Source: Crateriforma spongiae
GTDB taxonomy: Bacteria; Planctomycetota; Planctomycetia; Pirellulales; Pirellulaceae
Length of the DNA: 64,000 bases
Direction of reading: 5' to 3'
NCBI RefSeq assembly: GCF_012290005.1
Contig: NZ_JAAXMS010000009.1
Span: 62,001 to 126,000, forward strand
In this document: in pieces, positions 3,980-15,246 of the stretch
Numbering within the stretch: the first letter of the stretch is position 1
Layout of the letters: each line of letters opens with the position of its first letter
Position numbers and translations under genes: made by a program
The notes under the pieces: generated by a model
Databases searched by the model: none
Seen by the model: only the letters and a program-made list of their open reading frames with translations
Told to the model about the DNA's origin: nothing

Positions 3980-4629
3980 GGGTCACCCCCTTCTATCCTC
4001 GGTTGGTCGCTGATCTGGATCGTCGACGTGCCGTGTGCGTCACCGCGCGCCGACGACGGGTGTGTCCTACGTGACCAGTGTCACCCTGGTTTGGTTCCCA
4101 GCAAAAGTCAGGGAAATCGATTCCTTTCAACGAAAGGACCGAATTTCCGACCATCGCGAAACCGCAATCCGGGGTCGTCATCGCAACGCGCCGGCGGAAA
4201 ACATCCGAACGTAGCGTCATTTGTTCACCGTCCAGCGACGAAGGGCAACGTCACCAGTAGCGCAGGCGTCGTAATCCTACGAGCCTGACGACGGAAGTCC
4301 CGTCACCAGTTGCACGGGAAGTAAGCAATCGCCGGGCCATTCGTTGGGAAATACCGCCTGAGTCGGTTCTAACGGGCGTTCAGCCCCCATTAGAAATCCA
4401 ACCACTGATAGCGGACAGTTCACGAAATCTGCACAACGGACACCCTCCACAGGGCTATCCATGCCCCTCTCCGATTTTTCCGATTTCATTGCCTGATCGT
4501 TCCAGGTTCACTCATCGACAGTCGCTACGGCGTCGATAACGGAAGAGTATCGAAACGCGCCGCGACCGAATCGGTCGATCATCGGGATCCAGTCGGTTGG
4601 GGCGAACATCGAGGCAAGGGATTGCACAG
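3980..4629. other. Long divergent intergenic region, hairpin-rich
   Basis: About 650 bases separate the DksA/TraR-type gene (minus) from the FHA giant (plus). No frame here looks coding. The stretch 4263-4461 holds several well-formed inverted repeats, listed separately. Promoters for both flanking genes must lie here, but I see no clear -35/-10 pair. Confidence 0.5.
4263..4461. ncRNA. Candidate structured RNA or leader, class unknown
   Basis: Four inverted repeats lie within 200 bases. (1) CAGGC-g-TCGTA (4263-4273) pairs with TACGA-GCCTG (4278-4287), a 10-bp stem with one bulge. (2) GACGG (4290-4294) pairs with CCGTC (4300-4304). (3) CCCGT (4299-4303) pairs with ACGGG (4314-4318), which excludes hairpin 2. 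(4) TTCTAACGGG (4367-4376) pairs with CCCATTAGAA (4386-4395). A weaker one (GGA...TCC around CCC/GGG) spans 4439-4461. In hairpin 4 the single imperfect pair is a G-U wobble if the minus strand is transcribed but an A-C mismatch on the plus strand. This hints at a leader of the DksA/TraR-type gene. It does not match tRNA, tmRNA, SRP RNA or RNase P RNA cores that I recognise. Confidence 0.3.
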
Positions 4630-7600
4630 GTGAGCGTGAATCAAGACACAACGACCGGATCGTTTCAAATCGAAGCGATCATCGGCGCACCGACGAACCA
4701 CACCAACGTCTCCGAGGGGGCGAAGGATCCGGCCGGGGTGGCTCCCATGGCAATCGACTCGGGACCGCCCGAATCAGCCGTCGCCACAACTCAAGCGGCG
4801 ATCGAGTTTCGCGTATCCCGCCAAGACGCGCCGACCCGGCGCTTGCGACTGGCCGGTGCTCGGTACACCTTCGGCAGTGGTTCCTCGTGCTCGATCTGCT
4901 TGGACGATCCGTCGCTGCAGCCGCTGCACGCGATCCTGATCCGCGAAGGCGATCGGGTCCAAATGCGTGCCCATTCGATCCCGATCGAAATCAACGGTTC
5001 GCGAACCACCGAGGCCGTATTGTCGGTGGGCGACCAAGTCCGTTTGGGCAGCTATCGATTTGAATTGTTATCGATAGCCGCCTCCGTCTCCGTGCCGGCT
5101 GTCGATCCGGTGGCGGCCACCGCGACGCAGACGCCGGGCGATCCGTCGACACGACAACACCAGCGGGACGATGAACAGGACATGGGACGTTTATCGTTTG
5201 ACGATGCGGGCATGTATGGGGAACCTTCGCTGGACCTGGCGTCCTTTGAAAAGCCCACCTCACGTCCGCCCGAAGATGCCGCCGCGTCGTCGGAAACGGT
5301 CTTACAACAATCACCACCGCTGCCTGATTTGTCGGGCGTATTGACCGGTGAGGTCATCGACCATCAAGTTTGGCAAGACCGACTGCGCCGCGAAGTCCAG
5401 TTGTGGCGTCAGCGTCAAGAAGAATGCGAACGCCTGGTCCAACGATGCACCGATCGCGAATCGGAATTGCGTCAACGTGAATCGGAATTGTGGAGCAGGG
5501 CAGAGCGTCTGCAGGCTCGCGAAGCCAATTTAAAGGCGCAAGAATCGGCCGCCTACGAAATCCAACGTGAATACTTGGTCCAGCAAGAAGAACTGCAACA
5601 GCTGCGCAAGCAACATCAGCAGCAGTCCGACGACTGGAACCGCCGCAACGAAGAATACCGACGCCGGGAAAACGAGTACCAAGCTCAGGTCGAACAAGCA
5701 TCTCGGCAACTGGAACAGTCGCGCAGCCAGACCGAAACCGCGACCCAGTCGGTCGCCCGCATGCGACAGCAGCTGTCAGCGCTGAACCACCAGTTGGCCA
5801 GTTTGTCCCAAAACCAGGAAGAACTGGAACAGCGTGAGCGAAAATATCGCGCTGAACTACAGCAACAGACCGAACATTGGAAAGCCACACTTGCCGACGC
5901 GGAATCCAAACAACAAGCGTCCCAACGTGAATTGGCGGAACTAAAGGAAGCGAAGGACGACAGCGACACACGACGTCAGGATGCCGAGGCACGTGTCCGC
6001 GAAATGACGGACAGCTTGCAGTTGGCGCAGTCCCAGGCCGAAGAGCAATCCGCCAAACTGGCGGCCAGCGAATCGATCGCCGAAGAACTGCGTGTCCAAA
6101 TCGCGGAAATGCAACAGGAATTGCAGGAAGCCCAATCCGACACGGCACGACTGCGCGACGAGTGCGAACAAGCCCAACAGCAAATCCAGAGTTTGGAACA
6201 CGAAGGCGTCCAGATTCGATCGGATTCTGACCAGCAACGCAGCCAGTGGGAAGCCGAAACGGTCCAACTGCGCGAGTCGGTCCAGCAACTGAGCGATGAA
6301 CTTGCCGTCGCCAACGAACAGCTGACGAAGTTGCAGCAGAACAACGACGAACTGTCCGACAAGCTGCAACAGATTCGCCAGCAACGCGACGAAGCCATCG
6401 CCGAGTCGGAAAGCCGCCCATCGGCCGACGACCTACAACGCGTCCGCGATGAACTGCAAGACGCCACCCAGCGTCTGAGCGACTTGCAAAACCATCACGA
6501 AGACGTTCTGCAAGAACTGGAACAGGCACGTCACGCTGTCGACGTTCAACAGGCCGCCACACCAAGCGAACCAGATCTTTCGGCCGTCGCCGAAACGCCG
6601 GCCGACGAATTGTCGCCGGCGGAGCTATCGGAACCTGAATCGGCGGATCCCAAACCCTCCACTGCAGCGTTGGAGATTGTTGAACAAGCGGCTGCACCGG
6701 AGCTGCCGGCACAGGAAGCGTTGTTGAGCGACGAACAAGCCGCACCACAGTGGCAGGATGAACACGACGCGACCGTGCCCCAAGCGGAGTCGCCCTTGTC
6801 CGTCGTCGACGCCGATGTGTGGCCGACCTACGACCATGTCGAATCACAATCGGCCGACGATGCATCCGCAACAGCGGACGATCACAGCGTCTCCACCGCC
6901 GAAGACACCTCCATGTTGTCTAACGCGTCCGTCGTCGAGGATGCGACGGAATCGATTCCAATGACGCCACCGGATTTGGGATCGGATGTCGATCACGAAT
7001 CACAGGTCGAACCATCCCCGGTCGCTGAATCGGATCCGGCCGCCGGCATGCCCGATGCGACCGACGATTCGGCATGGGACATGCCGGTTGCAACACAACA
7101 AGATGCATCAGAACCCGAACCATCGGCTGCAGTGATGCAGGATGCAACCGGATCGATCGCTGAAGACGCTGCGGAAGATCCCTGGGCTTCGGTGTCAACA
7201 GACTGGGAAGATCAAGAAACATCGATCCCCGACGGTGAAACACCCGCGGTAGCCGAACAGACGGAAACTTCAACGGGCTCCTCCGAAGACTCATCGGGGT
7301 TCGACCCGTGGGCTCAAGCCAGCGAACCGGCACAATTGAGCCGAGAGGAGATCGAAGCGGCGAAGGCCAGTTGCCAAGAAGATGCTGAGACAGAAAGCGA
7401 ACCTGCTGACGCGGGCGTCGACATGACGTCGATCTGGAGCGAGCCGGAAGCGACCGACTCCGATTCGTCGAACATCTTTCACGAACCCACGGTTCTGACC
7501 GAAAGCGACCTTGCATCCGACACCTCGGATACGTCTTGGACGCCGCCCGCTGCCGACGAAGACTTGTCGGCACTGGATGACGCTGAACCATCGTTTGCGA

Positions 7601-8562
7601 GCGAATCTGACCAAGGCCTGGAACTGGTGGCCGATCCGAGTGAGATCTCCGAACCAGAACAGGCCACCAATTCGGACTCGGACGATGCGACACGTTTCAT
7701 CGCCGAAGGATCGTTGGCCCAACAACTGTTAAGCGACATCGCCGCGGACCAATCCCAACCGATCGAAGCGGTGGATGCGTCTGAGCCCGCCACCGAAGAT
7801 GCCGATCCGCAGGAGAGCGAATCCACTTTTGCGGGCACATTCAACCTGGCCGATTGGCAGGATGAAAACCAAGACGTCGCGGACCCATCGTCGATCAGCG
7901 AAAACGCCGGTGCCGAGGAACTTGGCCCCGCGCCTGTCCAAGAAGTCGCCAGCGAAGTTGCCGCCGATCCCCAGCCGACGCCCGAACCGGCCGCCACCGG
8001 TTCCGTCGCCGACGAAGAACCCGAAGACGACTCGATCGAAGCCTACATGAATCGTCTGTTGCAACGTGTCCAGAACGGGCCAAACGCAACCGGCGCGACA
8101 GGCGGCGGATCAGCACCCACGCCTCAGAAAGACGCATCGGCGGCGGCCGAGGAAGCACCGGCGGCAGAGATTCCGGTCGAACCCGAACCGGTCATTGACC
8201 CCAACGCGCCGCTGATCGCTCGTTCCGAAGCCCCCGAAAAGCACACGAACTTGTCGGCCATGCGAGAGCTGGCCAATGATTCCGCTCGCAGCGCGATCAG
8301 CCGCAGCACCAAACAGCAAATCCGTGACACCCAATTGCGTGGCATGTCACGTCTGTTGGTCGCCGCCGTGTTTGCCATCAGCGGGCTGGGCGTTTTTGTT
8401 GCGTCACCCATCATGTGGGTCAGCCTGCTGGGTCTGCTTGCCGGGATCATCGCTGCGGCGCTTTACGGCCGCGAAGGCTGGATGCTGATCCGCGATTCAC
8501 GCCGACGTCTGATGATGGCTCAAACCGCCCAGGAAACTCAGCCGAACCAGGACGAATCCTAG
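4630..8562 (+). CDS. Giant FHA / coiled-coil / acidic-linker membrane protein
   Basis: The protein is about 1310 residues from the GTG at 4630, which has a purine-rich GAGG/AAGGG stretch (4611-4620) upstream. A TTG at 4597 extends the frame by 11 codons. Domains in order: a short disordered leader, an FHA-like fold (about 60-150), a long Gln/Glu/Arg coiled coil (about 245-640), and a low-complexity Ser/Asp/Glu/Ala linker of about 540 residues. At the C-terminus are two membrane helices (about 1241-1285) and a short cytoplasmic tail. The FHA domain is degenerate: the G-R pair is G-S (F-G-S-G-S-S), and the S-x-x-H motif is lost (S-L-Q-P-L-H). Phosphothreonine binding is therefore doubtful. The layout suggests a membrane-tethered scaffold or spacer. 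I do not recognise a named family and infer no enzyme activity. Confidence 0.85.
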   Translation: MSVNQDTTTGSFQIEAIIGAPTNHTNVSEGAKDPAGVAPMAIDSGPPESAVATTQAAIEFRVSRQDAPTRRLRLAGARYTFGSGSSCSICLDDPSLQPLHAILIREGDRVQMRAHSIPIEINGSRTTEAVLSVGDQVRLGSYRFELLSIAASVSVPAVDPVAATATQTPGDPSTRQHQRDDEQDMGRLSFDDAGMYGEPSLDLASFEKPTSRPPEDAAASSETVLQQSPPLPDLSGVLTGEVIDHQVWQDRLRREVQLWRQRQEECERLVQRCTDRESELRQRESELWSRAERLQAREANLKAQESAAYEIQREYLVQQEELQQLRKQHQQQSDDWNRRNEEYRRRENEYQAQVEQASRQLEQSRSQTETATQSVARMRQQLSALNHQLASLSQNQEELEQRERKYRAELQQQTEHWKATLADAESKQQASQRELAELKEAKDDSDTRRQDAEARVREMTDSLQLAQSQAEEQSAKLAASESIAEELRVQIAEMQQELQEAQSDTARLRDECEQAQQQIQSLEHEGVQIRSDSDQQRSQWEAETVQLRESVQQLSDELAVANEQLTKLQQNNDELSDKLQQIRQQRDEAIAESESRPSADDLQRVRDELQDATQRLSDLQNHHEDVLQELEQARHAVDVQQAATPSEPDLSAVAETPADELSPAELSEPESADPKPSTAALEIVEQAAAPELPAQEALLSDEQAAPQWQDEHDATVPQAESPLSVVDADVWPTYDHVESQSADDASATADDHSVSTAEDTSMLSNASVVEDATESIPMTPPDLGSDVDHESQVEPSPVAESDPAAGMPDATDDSAWDMPVATQQDASEPEPSAAVMQDATGSIAEDAAEDPWASVSTDWEDQETSIPDGETPAVAEQTETSTGSSEDSSGFDPWAQASEPAQLSREEIEAAKASCQEDAETESEPADAGVDMTSIWSEPEATDSDSSNIFHEPTVLTESDLASDTSDTSWTPPAADEDLSALDDAEPSFASESDQGLELVADPSEISEPEQATNSDSDDATRFIAEGSLAQQLLSDIAADQSQPIEAVDASEPATEDADPQESESTFAGTFNLADWQDENQDVADPSSISENAGAEELGPAPVQEVASEVAADPQPTPEPAATGSVADEEPEDDSIEAYMNRLLQRVQNGPNATGATGGGSAPTPQKDASAAAEEAPAAEIPVEPEPVIDPNAPLIARSEAPEKHTNLSAMRELANDSARSAISRSTKQQIRDTQLRGMSRLLVAAVFAISGLGVFVASPIMWVSLLGLLAGIIAAALYGREGWMLIRDSRRRLMMAQTAQETQPNQDES

Positions 8563-11184: not shown

Positions 11185-13080
11185 ATGCCTGAACTGATTG
11201 CCCAAGGACGCAGCAGCGGACAACGATGGTGCCGCGAAGTGCCCGATGCCACCAACCATCGTGGTATCACGATTGGCCGTAGCGGTGCAGATTGGGACGT
11301 GCCTTGGGATTCGATGATTTCCAGAGCCCACATTCGCCTAACGGCGATGCCCGACGACCGCGTGGAAATCCAGCGGTTGCCGACGGCCCGCAACCCGGTT
11401 TTTCATGGCGGACGTCAAGTCGACCAATTCACGCTGGTCCCCGGCGAACACTTTGTGATCGGGCACACCACGTTCACTCTGGCCAGTCGCGCCGGTTCGT
11501 CCCACACGCCCAACGTGGGTGATGTGACCGAGCACGCGTTTGATTTGGGATCCCTACGGCGGCAAAAGTTCCGTGACGCCAATCAACGAATCGATGCGCT
11601 GACCAAATTGCCGGACTTGATCACCGGCAGTTCGACCGAACAAGAATTACTGGTTCGTCTGACTGGGGTGCTGCTGACAAGCACGCCCGCAGCCACCGAT
11701 GTCGCCATCGTGTGTTATCGGGATCCCTCGGACGAAGCAAAAAGCGGTTTGCGGATCTTGCATCGCGACAGTCGTGTCCCGGGTCGCGAACAACCGCCGA
11801 TCAGTTCCCGGTTGGTTCGTGCCGCGGTCTCGTCACGTGAAAGCCGGCTGCACCTTTGGTCGTCAACGCGTAAAGACGCGGTCGCTTTTACGGCCAGCGA
11901 AGAAGTGGACTGGGCATTCTGTGTACCGATTCGCAGCGATGCGTGTGCCGGCTGGGCCTTCTACGTGGCCGGCCAGACGATGGCTCCGCTGTCGGCTGAT
12001 CCTGATGAACAGGCCGCAGACTCCACGCCGCAAGACTTGGGCGACGACGTCAAGTTCGCGGAACTGGTCGGCACCATGCTGGGAAATCTTCGCAAATCGC
12101 TGCGTCTGGAACGACGGCAATCCGCGATGCGAAGCTTCTTCGCGCCGGTCGTGATGGATGCCTTGGCCAATCGCGAAGTCAGCGAAGTCCTGGCGCCGCG
12201 TGAAACGGAATTAGCCGTCATGTTTTGCGACCTGCGGGGCTTCAGCCGACAAAGCGAACAAGCTTCGGACCGGCTGTTGGAATTGCTGGATCGCGTCAGC
12301 AACGCGTTGGGCGTGATGACCCACCATATCTTGCGACAACGAGGTGTGATCGGTGATTTCCACGGCGACGCGGCCATGGGGTTCTGGGGCTGGCCGCTGG
12401 ATCAACCCGATCGTCAAGTTCGCGCGGCGCTGGCGGCTCTGTTGATTTGGCGACACTACGCGGCCGACACCAATCAATCCGGATTCCGTTGTGGCATCGG
12501 CATTGCCAGCGGCCGCGCGGTGGCCGGACGCATTGGAACGACCGACCAAGTGAAAGTGACCGCGTTTGGTCCGGTGGTGAACCTGGCAAGTCGTCTCGAA
12601 GGCATGACCAAGGTCTTCGGTGCCGAAGTCTTGCTGGATCAAACCACTGCCGAAGCATTGTCGACGGCGACGCCCGGATCGTTCGGAACCTTTCGGCTGC
12701 GGCGTTTGGCCACGGTGCGTCCGGCGGGCATGAACGAACCGTTACAGATCAGCCAACTGTTGGGCACCAGCGACGACGGATCCTTACAAGAAAGCGTCGA
12801 ATTGGGCGTCGATTCGGCGGTCACCCCGATCGATTCCCCCGGCCAACAGGACGGTTCCGACTCGCCCTCGTCGCCCCCTACGACGCTGACCGACGACGAC
12901 ATCCGAAACTATGAACAAGCCCTCGACCGATTCGTCGCGGGGGATTGGGACGAAACCTACCAGTTGCTGCATGCGTTGCCGGCATGGGACCGCCCCAAGG
13001 ATGTTTTGTTGTCGGTGATTCTGCGACACAATCGGGTCCCGCCGGCGGATTGGGACGGCGTGATCGATTTGCCCAAATGA
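11185..13080 (+). CDS. FHA-GAF-class III adenylate/guanylate cyclase
   Basis: This 631-residue cytoplasmic protein begins with an intact FHA domain (about 5-102). The phosphopeptide contacts G-R-S (31-33), S-R-A-H (46-49) and Asn70 are all visible. A GAF-like domain (about 130-305) follows, then a class III cyclase domain (about 338-525). The two metal aspartates are present: Asp349 in F-C-D-L-R-G-F-S and Asp395 in H-G-D-A-A-M-G-F-W-G. The transition-state pair is Asn466 and Arg470. The usual substrate-selecting Lys is replaced by Asp391 and its partner is Thr459, so nucleotide specificity is unclear. A 100-residue tail has an alpha-helical segment near 565-600. FHA input suggests control by Ser/Thr phosphorylation; that link is inferred. 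Confidence 0.9.
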   Translation: MPELIAQGRSSGQRWCREVPDATNHRGITIGRSGADWDVPWDSMISRAHIRLTAMPDDRVEIQRLPTARNPVFHGGRQVDQFTLVPGEHFVIGHTTFTLASRAGSSHTPNVGDVTEHAFDLGSLRRQKFRDANQRIDALTKLPDLITGSSTEQELLVRLTGVLLTSTPAATDVAIVCYRDPSDEAKSGLRILHRDSRVPGREQPPISSRLVRAAVSSRESRLHLWSSTRKDAVAFTASEEVDWAFCVPIRSDACAGWAFYVAGQTMAPLSADPDEQAADSTPQDLGDDVKFAELVGTMLGNLRKSLRLERRQSAMRSFFAPVVMDALANREVSEVLAPRETELAVMFCDLRGFSRQSEQASDRLLELLDRVSNALGVMTHHILRQRGVIGDFHGDAAMGFWGWPLDQPDRQVRAALAALLIWRHYAADTNQSGFRCGIGIASGRAVAGRIGTTDQVKVTAFGPVVNLASRLEGMTKVFGAEVLLDQTTAEALSTATPGSFGTFRLRRLATVRPAGMNEPLQISQLLGTSDDGSLQESVELGVDSAVTPIDSPGQQDGSDSPSSPPTTLTDDDIRNYEQALDRFVAGDWDETYQLLHALPAWDRPKDVLLSVILRHNRVPPADWDGVIDLPK

Positions 13081-13341
13081 TTTTGCTGGATTTCCCACCA
13101 TTTGCCCCGACGACGCGGTGGGTTCCGGCACGGTTAGAATCCGATCGATCCGTCCAAACGGACCATTGCGGTCGTTTGCCCAGCCTACCTAGACTTTCAC
13201 CCGTCGAAATCGGTCGGGCCAGCGGAAAATGAACGCCGGGCTCTTTGACGCGTTCACCGCGGGGCATCGGATCCAGTGCGTCCGCCATCCGATTCCGGCA
13301 GATCAAGGACAGCAAGGCGCGAACCAGCAAGGCGAAACCTC

Positions 13342-15246
13342 ATGACAAAGCAATCCATCACCGGGCTCACTTTGGCGACCTTCCTTGCGTTCGGCCTCGT
13401 TTCGCAGTCCGTCGTCACCGGCCAAGGCACAACCGTCGTCAGCACAACATCGATGCCAACAACGCCGGCCAGCCGATGGAACCGACTGGCCGATCAGATC
13501 GAAAGCAATCTGGACGCCATTCGCGGTGATCGGCTGCCCAACTTGGATGTCGCAAAGTCAGGATTCATTGCTTCTCTGACGCAGTTACAGCAGTATCTGG
13601 ACACCCACACCAGCCGCCGAAACCGTGCCGCATGGATGCGTTACATCGATGCCCAACCGTTGGCCGATGCGATCGAAAACGACGAATCCGTGTCGACGAT
13701 CGGTCGCCTGGCAACCGAACTGCATCAACGCATGGTGGGGCTTCACGACGGCCTGGAACTGGCGAACTTTCGTCAATTGCGAACATCCACCGAAGGGCTG
13801 ATTGCCGCGGCAAAGTTTGCCGATTCCGAGCGTTCGGTCCCGCTTCTGCAGCGACAATTGGAACTGTTATCAAAAACCTTGCGCGAGATTGATTCGGCAC
13901 CTTCGACCGATGACGCCGCGGCGATCGGTACGATCCTGGGAACGCTGAGCGAATCGCGCCAGGTCCCCGATTTGATCGCGAACGTTCGATCCTCCTTCGC
14001 CAGCCCCAACTTTCGCATCGACATCCCCGAACGCACGGTTCAGTCGGCCGTGATGCGCGACGTCAACAAACTGCAGCCGGTTCGCGATTGCATCCTGGGG
14101 ACGGCATTGCGAGGCACCAGCAATTTGCGCGGCATCGTTCAAGCGGACCTGCAACCGTCCATCGGCGACGTGCACATGGTGTTGCATTTGACCGGTCGAT
14201 TCCACAGCGACAACGTGGGTTACAACAAACCGGTCCGCTTGACGACCGTGTCCGATGGAAACGTGCACGTCACACGAAGCCTGTTTTTCGGCCCCAACGG
14301 TTCACGATTGTCCGCGGCATCCGCACAAGTGTCTCTGCAAAGCAAAGTCACGTCGATCCAACATCGATGGCGACTGGTGCGTCGGATCGCCAGCAAACGC
14401 GCCGCGGAGCAAAAGCCGTTGGCCGATTCTATCGCTCGCGAAAAGTTGCGGCGACGAGTGACATCCGAATTCGTCCGCGAAACGGACCAGGCGGCATCGT
14501 TGCCCAGCCCGAACATGATGTCCCGTGCGGAACCCTATCTACTGCGATTGGACTTGGAAAAGCCGCAGCGGACCTGGGGCAGCACGGACACATCCATGTT
14601 CATCGAAGGCGTCATGGCCGATACCCACCAGTTGTCCGCCGATCGCCCGGCGCCGATGTCTGATGCAGGCAGTGACGCGTCGATCCAGATCCATGAATCC
14701 GTGGTGGAAAACACTCTGGCACCGCTGCTGTCGGGGCGATCCTTCGAACAACATGAACTGGACGATCTGCTTGAACAGATCGGGTTGCCCACACAGAAAC
14801 CAGCGGACGATCCAATCGATGAACCGGAGGAACCGTTCCAGCTGCGATTCACGCGATTTCGTCCGATCATTTTCGAAAGTCGTGATCAAAAGGTACGCCT
14901 GGGTCTGCGTGGATCCGAGTTCGCCCAAGGCGACCGAGAACTGCGGCGGACCAACTTGGAAATCGCGGCAACGTATGTCCCCGCGCGACTGGACGACGGG
15001 TCGATGTGGCTGATCCGCGATGGGGAAGTCAGCATTCGATTCCCCGGTCGCCAGCGTTTGGGGCTTCGCGAATCCGCGATCCGCAGCACGCTGCGAAAGT
15101 CGTTTGAAAATGTGTTCCCCGAAACACTGTTGTCCAAGACGTGGACGACGCCGGACGATTTTGCCATCCAAGCGGTCGCCGGTCGCCAGTTTCAGTCCAA
15201 CCATATCGACGCCCGTGACGGTTGGCTGACGATCGGCGTTCGATAG
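13342..15246 (+). CDS. Secreted protein of unknown function, 634 aa
   Basis: The frame is open from 13276. The ATG at 13342 gives a clean signal peptide (I-T-G-L-T-L-A-T-F-L-A-F-G-L-V-S) with a cleavage site near A/G-Q-G, so I start there. The remainder is soluble, rich in Arg/Asp/Leu helices in the first half, with no Cys cluster or membrane segment. I recognise no catalytic motif. It is followed 60 bases later by the DUF2092-thioredoxin gene on the same strand, and both proteins are exported, so a shared envelope role is possible. The gene appears intact. Confidence 0.8.
   Translation: MTKQSITGLTLATFLAFGLVSQSVVTGQGTTVVSTTSMPTTPASRWNRLADQIESNLDAIRGDRLPNLDVAKSGFIASLTQLQQYLDTHTSRRNRAAWMRYIDAQPLADAIENDESVSTIGRLATELHQRMVGLHDGLELANFRQLRTSTEGLIAAAKFADSERSVPLLQRQLELLSKTLREIDSAPSTDDAAAIGTILGTLSESRQVPDLIANVRSSFASPNFRIDIPERTVQSAVMRDVNKLQPVRDCILGTALRGTSNLRGIVQADLQPSIGDVHMVLHLTGRFHSDNVGYNKPVRLTTVSDGNVHVTRSLFFGPNGSRLSAASAQVSLQSKVTSIQHRWRLVRRIASKRAAEQKPLADSIAREKLRRRVTSEFVRETDQAASLPSPNMMSRAEPYLLRLDLEKPQRTWGSTDTSMFIEGVMADTHQLSADRPAPMSDAGSDASIQIHESVVENTLAPLLSGRSFEQHELDDLLEQIGLPTQKPADDPIDEPEEPFQLRFTRFRPIIFESRDQKVRLGLRGSEFAQGDRELRRTNLEIAATYVPARLDDGSMWLIRDGEVSIRFPGRQRLGLRESAIRSTLRKSFENVFPETLLSKTWTTPDDFAIQAVAGRQFQSNHIDARDGWLTIGVR

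Follow-up and report, generated by a model that had tools for sequence, protein, structure and literature searches.

Domain architecture of the cyclase gene and its surroundings

The window, meaning the whole 64,000-nucleotide stretch of Crateriforma spongiae DNA analysed here, contains on its forward strand a cyclase gene whose ATG start agrees with the MPDLIAQG start conserved among its orthologues. The features discussed below, in window coordinates, are as follows.

11185..13080, + strand: FHA-GAF-class III cyclase gene, an intact open reading frame with an ATG start, 631 amino acids (631 codons plus stop)
11266..11484, + strand: FHA domain, residues 28-100, 19.6 bits in Pfam (cut-off 20.7), with invariant residues
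11536..12099, + strand: predicted GAF-fold domain and start of the signalling helix, residues 118-305, from the AlphaFold2 model and its match to 3ci6
12010..12132, + strand: long signalling helix connecting GAF to cyclase, residues 276-316, from DSSP of the model
12199..12774, + strand: class III cyclase homology domain, residues 339-530, from PF00211 and the structural match to 3r5g
12229..12231, + strand: metal-binding Asp349, in 131/131 distinct domains
12355..12357, + strand: Asp391 at the purine-selecting Lys position, codon GAT, in 131/131 distinct domains
12367..12369, + strand: metal-binding Asp395, in 131/131 distinct domains
12559..12561, + strand: Thr459 at the second base-selecting position (121 Thr, 7 Gly and 3 Ser among 131 domains)
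12580..12594, + strand: transition-state Asn466 and Arg470, each in 131/131 distinct domains
12880..13077, + strand: conserved helical C-terminal tail, residues 566-631, ending PPxxWDGVI, a separate conserved tblastn segment

PF00211 matches residues 339-493 of the window protein with 34.7 bits (cut-off 21.9), and 47/47 orthologues are matched at E<=0.01. A full-length AlphaFold2 model, built on an alignment of 47 sequences, one of them the window protein and the other 46 its orthologues, has a mean pLDDT of 85.9 and a pTM of 0.62. The cyclase domain of this model has the cyclase fold, with Pseudomonas aeruginosa CyaB (3r5g) as its best structural match (Z 22.0, rmsd 2.0, 185 residues aligned); the match to Cya2 (2w01) has Z 20.1 and rmsd 2.5 over 189 residues, and matches within 1 Z of each other, including the guanylyl cyclase 6ao9 (21.5), are treated as tied. 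The C-terminal tail is modelled as helices with pLDDT 82-98 in the blocks covering residues 571-631 and had no match in the Pfam scan.

Pfam returned no GAF match in the window protein. Modelled separately, residues 118-305 reach a pLDDT of 81.4 and resemble the GAF domain 3ci6 (Z 13.2, rmsd 3.5, 136 residues aligned), with the tandem GAF structure of an adenylyl cyclase, 1ykd, also among the fold matches (rank 40, E 2.5e-3). From the model, this region is predicted to be a GAF domain, so the FHA-GAF-cyclase architecture proposed in the initial annotation appears to be right despite the silence of Pfam.

Two neighbouring genes were considered as operon partners. The HI0933-like gene upstream is kept in 13/80 orthologous loci and the 656-residue open reading frame downstream (13276-15246, + strand), which has no Pfam match, in 12/80, in both cases mostly in the loci nearest the query. 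As this is conservation in a minority only, an operon with these neighbours was rejected, and the function of the cyclase is not defined by them.

Conservation of Asp391 and the catalytic residues

An aspartate had initially been noted where class III cyclases usually carry the purine-selecting lysine, with both metal-binding aspartates and the Asn/Arg pair intact, and it had been proposed to gather homologues with the same aspartate. The larger sample bears these readings out. Asp391 aligns without gaps with the Lys of CyaC and of planctomycete Lys-type cyclases and with the Glu of Cya2; the position is Asp, and never Lys, in 131/131 distinct cyclase domains of the window family, and Asp349, Asp395, Asn466 and Arg470 are all retained in the same 131. 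A 102-row alignment, from which 9 exact copies were removed beforehand, has Asp391 and each of the four catalytic residues in 102/102 rows and Thr (101) or Ser (1) at position 459; as it contains the window gene twice (once in a longer reading frame) and a near-identical same-genus copy, these rows represent 100 distinct domains. Twenty further rows all have Asp391, with 16 Thr, 2 Ser and 2 Gly at 459, and Asp391 is found in 16/16 rows of a supplementary set in which 5 rows are repeats.

The mean pairwise identity of the rows is 52% (800 sampled pairs). Only 65 of the 631 positions are invariant, Asp391 among them, and 40 of these fall in the 192-residue cyclase domain. Invariance at this level of divergence argues that Asp391 is a fixed feature of the family, neither decay nor chance; a decayed or misaligned site was ruled out, the position being both ungapped and invariant. 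By its conserved residues the window enzyme looks catalytically competent.

The family was found in 107/246 sampled genomes of the order (cyclase threshold E<=1e-40). A strict motif pattern run on 392 genomes of the phylum matched 6 of them, every one a member of this order with Asp where the pattern left the codon free, and no occurrence count was taken from it because it misses known members (AV in place of AA, for example in G018). An Asp-type orthologue on contig C18 of G003 went unreported by PF00211 even at E<=1 and was found with the protein query at 9.6e-116, so Pfam-based surveys may overlook such enzymes. One full-length orthologue (L076) lies on a contig labelled Candidatus Nealsonbacteria; it groups with Pirellulales in the tree, and the contig is probably mis-binned.

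A wider group of Asp/Asn-type planctomycete cyclases

In total, 71 other planctomycete cyclases were read at the same positions, 30 of them chosen by PF00211 score, 40 by similarity to the query, and one being the second cyclase of the window genome (L001, of which L240 is a same-genus copy). The Lys position holds Lys in 40, Asp in 26, Asn in 3, Gln in 1 and Arg in 1, frequencies that, given selection by similarity or score, are no census. The aspartate reported at the outset is real, and the impression that it sets this protein apart is not sustained, as it is common to many planctomycete cyclases. Thr459, the second base-selecting residue, was absent from the initial annotation. Among the Lys-type rows this second position is Thr or Asp in 38/40 (Thr in 30), and among the Asp/Asn-type rows it is some other residue, mostly Gly, in 28/29. 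The two selecting positions therefore change in concert, in cases that are not independent, since the Asp group goes back mostly to a single event.

In a 91-row tree, a branch supported at 100/99 separates the 58 Asp/Asn-type rows from the others, and these 58 split into the window FHA-GAF family (38 rows, 100/100) and a set of paralogues (20 rows, 99/96). The tree is midpoint-rooted and sampled the family and the first 20 paralogues, the second 20 lying outside it. Most Asp-type paralogues are Asp-Gly: 14/20 in the first set and 9/9 Asp rows in the second. The window family thus sits in a well-supported larger assemblage, a distinct group of Asp-type cyclases in which Asp391 and Thr459 would together select the base. 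Invariance of Asp across such a group would extend the recognised base-selection code, and planctomycetes may turn out to use a messenger other than cAMP.

The Asp/Asn-type paralogues, again mostly Asp-Gly, are L113-L132, L227, L228, L230-L233, L236, L238 and L246. By eye, eight paralogues read over their whole frames show FHA-like plus GAF-like or REC-like front ends, one frame being without FHA. The catalytic Asn or Arg is missing from four Asp-type paralogues (L227, L230, L236 and L246). The window genome has one other PF00211 protein, the Lys-Thr cyclase mentioned above. In five genomes (G005, G006, G018, G025 and G055) the window-family enzyme is the sole PF00211-type cyclase detected at E<=1, and its product would be their class III messenger.

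Predicted nucleotide preference

According to the papers cited here, adenylyl cyclases read the N1 of adenine with Lys and the 6-amino group with Asp or Thr, and guanylyl cyclases read the N1 and 2-amino group of guanine with Glu (PMC5967339, PMC4886424). An acid at the Lys position is described as a guanylyl-cyclase hallmark and is normally Glu (PMC4215837, PMC4886424), with C, S, T, H, A or G at the second position (PMC4215837). The selecting pair is Glu-Gly in Cya2 (PMC4215837) and Glu-Thr in Myxococcus xanthus PKN2 (PMC1262709). In the nearest engineered pair, Ma1120 K101E/D157T, kcat/Km (x10^6) is 3.16 for ATP versus 0.227 for GTP (PMC4215837).

Set against these patterns, the window family has Asp at the first position in 131/131 domains, which is neither the Lys of adenylyl cyclases nor, acid though it is, the Glu of guanylyl cyclases; Thr459 falls within the second-position residues of both. 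Asp is one methylene shorter than Glu, and by analogy Asp-Gly in the paralogues and Asp-Thr in the window family resemble the Glu-Gly and Glu-Thr pairs with a shorter acid. In the profile search an adenylyl cyclase, CyaB, and a guanylyl cyclase, Cya2, come out almost level as nearest solved relatives, so profile similarity cannot tell ATP from GTP enzymes. No characterised Asp-type cyclase with a measured product was found in the literature searched.

The nucleotide had initially been called unpredictable. The acid at 391 and the Thr allowed at the second position match the guanylyl-cyclase pattern and favour GTP, so a leading prediction, if a weak one, can be given. On the analogy of cyclases with Glu-Gly, Glu-Cys or Glu-Thr pairs, GTP is most likely the substrate and cGMP the product, which we hold with modest confidence. 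Invariance of the site as proof of GTP use was dropped because the Glu-Thr pair of Ma1120 still prefers ATP.

The FHA domain

The FHA domain of the window protein scores just below the Pfam cut-off for PF00498 (19.6 against 20.7 bits), and 28/47 orthologues are matched at E<=0.01. Residues 1-100 are modelled as beta-rich with pLDDT about 87-98. G31, R32, S46, H49 and N70 are each present in 102/102 aligned rows; the NG of the motif reads NP in the window protein, with GR, S, H and N invariant.

The same window contains a gene for a giant coiled-coil-like protein (4597-8562, + strand) whose FHA domain, at 28.6 bits, exceeds the Pfam cut-off. Read by eye, the loops of that domain are FGSGSS and LQPLHAI, and the phosphothreonine-contacting Arg and Ser are missing. 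The contrast first drawn between an intact FHA domain in the cyclase and the FHA domain of the giant is therefore upheld at the level of these residues.

Linkage and co-occurrence with a Ser/Thr kinase

An orthologous Ser/Thr kinase gene lies directly upstream of the cyclase on the same strand in at least 12 of 80 named orthologous loci, a lower bound since 66/80 loci have at least 2.5 kb of upstream sequence. With the cyclase start located in 11 of these 12 loci, kinase and cyclase are 1-95 nt apart in nine and 320 and 419 nt apart in the other two. With thresholds of our choosing (E<=1e-70 for the kinase, E<=1e-40 for the cyclase), 54 cyclase-kinase pairs are found on one contig, of which 41, from 40 of the 99 genomes that have both genes and from ten families, lie within 1.4 kb; these distances run between match ends and not gene ends. 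All 41 have the kinase 5' of the cyclase in the same orientation, an operon-like arrangement. One genome (G472) has the pair twice (L222, L223), kinase first in both. The two frames of each of its pairs are within about 65 bases, which shows that incomplete matches account in part for the larger distances. In another, G030, the two genes are divergent.

The kinase occurs in 108/246 genomes of the order. Both genes are present in 99 genomes, the cyclase only in 8, the kinase only in 9 and neither in 130 (phi 0.86, with kinship ignored). A control multi-copy Ser/Thr kinase family co-occurs weakly with the cyclase (phi 0.39), an imperfect control because it is multi-copy, and the desaturase encoded two genes upstream in the window gives phi 0.00. 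Counted by hand at the genus level, the corresponding figures are 60, 5, 3 and 45. Presence and absence of the two genes are concordant inside family f2 and nearly so in f3. In a set of 60 genomes including that of the window, the kinase is found in 47, once each, at E<=1e-70.

In the window genome the kinase is present and unlinked, on another contig (C1, about 666505-668910), and the two genes are likewise unlinked in a near relative (G001); adjacency combined with co-inheritance is thus seen in the relatives. A sulfatase reading frame (L203:6931-9051) starts 16 nt 3' of the kinase frame of the window genome, where the cyclase would stand. Pfam finds a kinase domain and no Cache match in this kinase. 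In six upstream kinases scanned, Pkinase scores far above its cut-off and a dCache match falls below its own in all; hydrophobic segments are visible by eye in the upstream kinases. In an alignment of 28 kinases, HCD takes the place of HRD in the catalytic loop of all 28, and DFG is kept in 27/28. No conserved phosphosite was identified in these 28, and because the activation-loop Thr before Pro varies among them, no specific FHA ligand in the kinase is named. Phosphorylation-dependent control of the cyclase, initially raised as a possibility, is made likelier by the adjacency and co-occurrence of the kinase gene, which lend it comparative support.

The exceptions to the pairing were inspected individually. 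Family f7 accounts for five of the eight genomes that have the cyclase only. These five carry the Asp-Gly subtype, its FHA residues being intact in four and the fifth copy truncated; G019 also has the Asp-Gly subtype, intact FHA residues and no orthologous kinase. As intact FHA domains occur there without the kinase, FHA function seems not to depend on the orthologous kinase alone, family f7 being the main evidence. Of the remaining three cyclase-only genomes, G489 is 75% complete with its cyclase at a contig edge, the copy in G505 sits on a 4.9-kb contig, and that in G004 is cut by a contig end. On the kinase-only side, the kinase of G600 is at a contig edge with the expected cyclase place beyond the end, and five of the nine genomes are from a single genus (g368), whose kinases score lower and may represent a different paralogue. 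The Asp-Gly subtype of the FHA-GAF cyclase at L207-L211 and L214 carries ADFQGDAALGFWGWP and variants, with FHA intact in 5/6 and truncated in the sixth.

A proposed kinase-cyclase module

We put at about one in two (roughly 0.5) the chance that the window enzyme is a homodimeric FHA-GAF-class III cyclase acting as the output enzyme of a kinase-cyclase module conserved in the order, one that reads phosphothreonine and has an Asp-type, GTP-preferring pocket. In such a module, the Ser/Thr kinase would sense a signal that alters its activity and would place phosphothreonine on itself, on the cyclase or on a third protein. The FHA domain of the cyclase would bind that phosphothreonine, the GAF domain and long helix would relay the change and reset the catalytic dimer, and the Asp391-Thr459 pocket would make the messenger, probably cGMP. 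More tentatively, the Asp-for-Lys group of planctomycete cyclases may as a whole make a messenger other than cAMP, with the enzyme of this order gated through its FHA domain by a dedicated membrane kinase. The kinase operon would then offer a concrete example in which a Ser/Thr kinase signal is passed on to a second messenger via FHA. No planctomycete FHA-cyclase, kinase-cyclase gene pair or phosphothreonine-to-cyclic-nucleotide relay was found described in the open-access literature searched.

The identity of the product leaves room for other readings. The enzyme could be an adenylyl cyclase, or a promiscuous one preferring ATP, in which Asp391 is tolerated, Thr459 and the backbone read adenine, and the kinase link is unchanged. 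Thr459 is indeed the usual second residue of the Lys-type cyclases, the Ma1120 double mutant still prefers ATP, and the top structural match is an adenylyl cyclase, in a tie that includes a guanylyl cyclase; Lys, however, appears in none of the 131 domains, and the related paralogues are mostly Asp-Gly, which a changed base choice fits better than tolerance, so ATP use seems to us rather unlikely. Asp391 might instead contact another base, giving a non-purine or unusual nucleotide such as cCMP or cUMP. Neither Asp nor Asn at this position belongs to the ATP or GTP pairs given in the literature consulted, and pyrimidine cyclases also have the class III motifs (PMC11224242), but there is no positive evidence for such a product and Pfam showed no Pycsar-type effector among the seven neighbouring window genes scanned, leaving this reading remote. 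Nor is a catalytically silent, regulatory cyclase domain at all probable: the non-canonical selecting residue and the four Asp-type paralogues lacking Asn or Arg would suit it, but in the window family the four catalytic residues are kept throughout and the invariant positions concentrate in the cyclase domain.

A different objection concerns the module itself, since kinase and cyclase may merely be co-inherited without acting on each other. The co-occurrence statistic ignores kinship, a control kinase family itself reaches phi 0.39, and neither the window genome nor G001 has the two genes linked. Against this, the kinase-first, same-strand order holds in all 41 close pairs across ten families, the pair occurs twice in G472, and phi is 0.86 as opposed to 0.39 and 0.00 for the controls; simple co-inheritance is accordingly judged distinctly unlikely.

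The proposed kinase-cyclase module with a GTP-preferring enzyme can be compared with several known systems. CyaB resembles the window enzyme in cyclase-domain structure and differs in being, by its structure title, an adenylyl cyclase, with a Lys-type selecting pair and different regulatory domains. Cya2, a Synechocystis guanylyl cyclase, shares the class III domain, the acid at the Lys position and a second residue other than Asp, but its pair is Glu-Gly rather than Asp-Thr and the solved chain is the cyclase domain only; 6fht, a chimera with nearly the same domain as Cya2, has Lys at the selecting position. In the cyanobacterial GAF adenylyl cyclases (1ykd) GAF likewise precedes a class III cyclase, although in tandem; these enzymes are not known to carry an FHA domain, and their pair is not of the Asp type. 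Mycobacterial PknH-EmbR and other kinase-FHA gene pairs similarly combine a Ser/Thr kinase with an FHA protein, EmbR having such a domain, but the output of PknH-EmbR is a transcription regulator and not a nucleotide cyclase. EmbR is phosphorylated by PknH, and FHA and kinase genes cluster, according to PMC1262709. The same paper describes M. xanthus PKN2, which also couples a Ser/Thr kinase to a cyclase domain with an acid-Thr pair, unlike the window system in that the kinase and the guanylyl-cyclase-like domain are fused, the acid is Glu and not Asp, and no FHA or GAF domain is described there (PMC1262709).

Cyclic-nucleotide receptors were set aside as a clue to the nucleotide, the selectivity of cyclic-nucleotide-binding proteins being unreadable. 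The window genome does encode such proteins, among them, on contig C7, a 207-residue stand-alone cyclic-nucleotide-binding protein (L153) with an apparently intact phosphate cassette, which is a candidate receptor.
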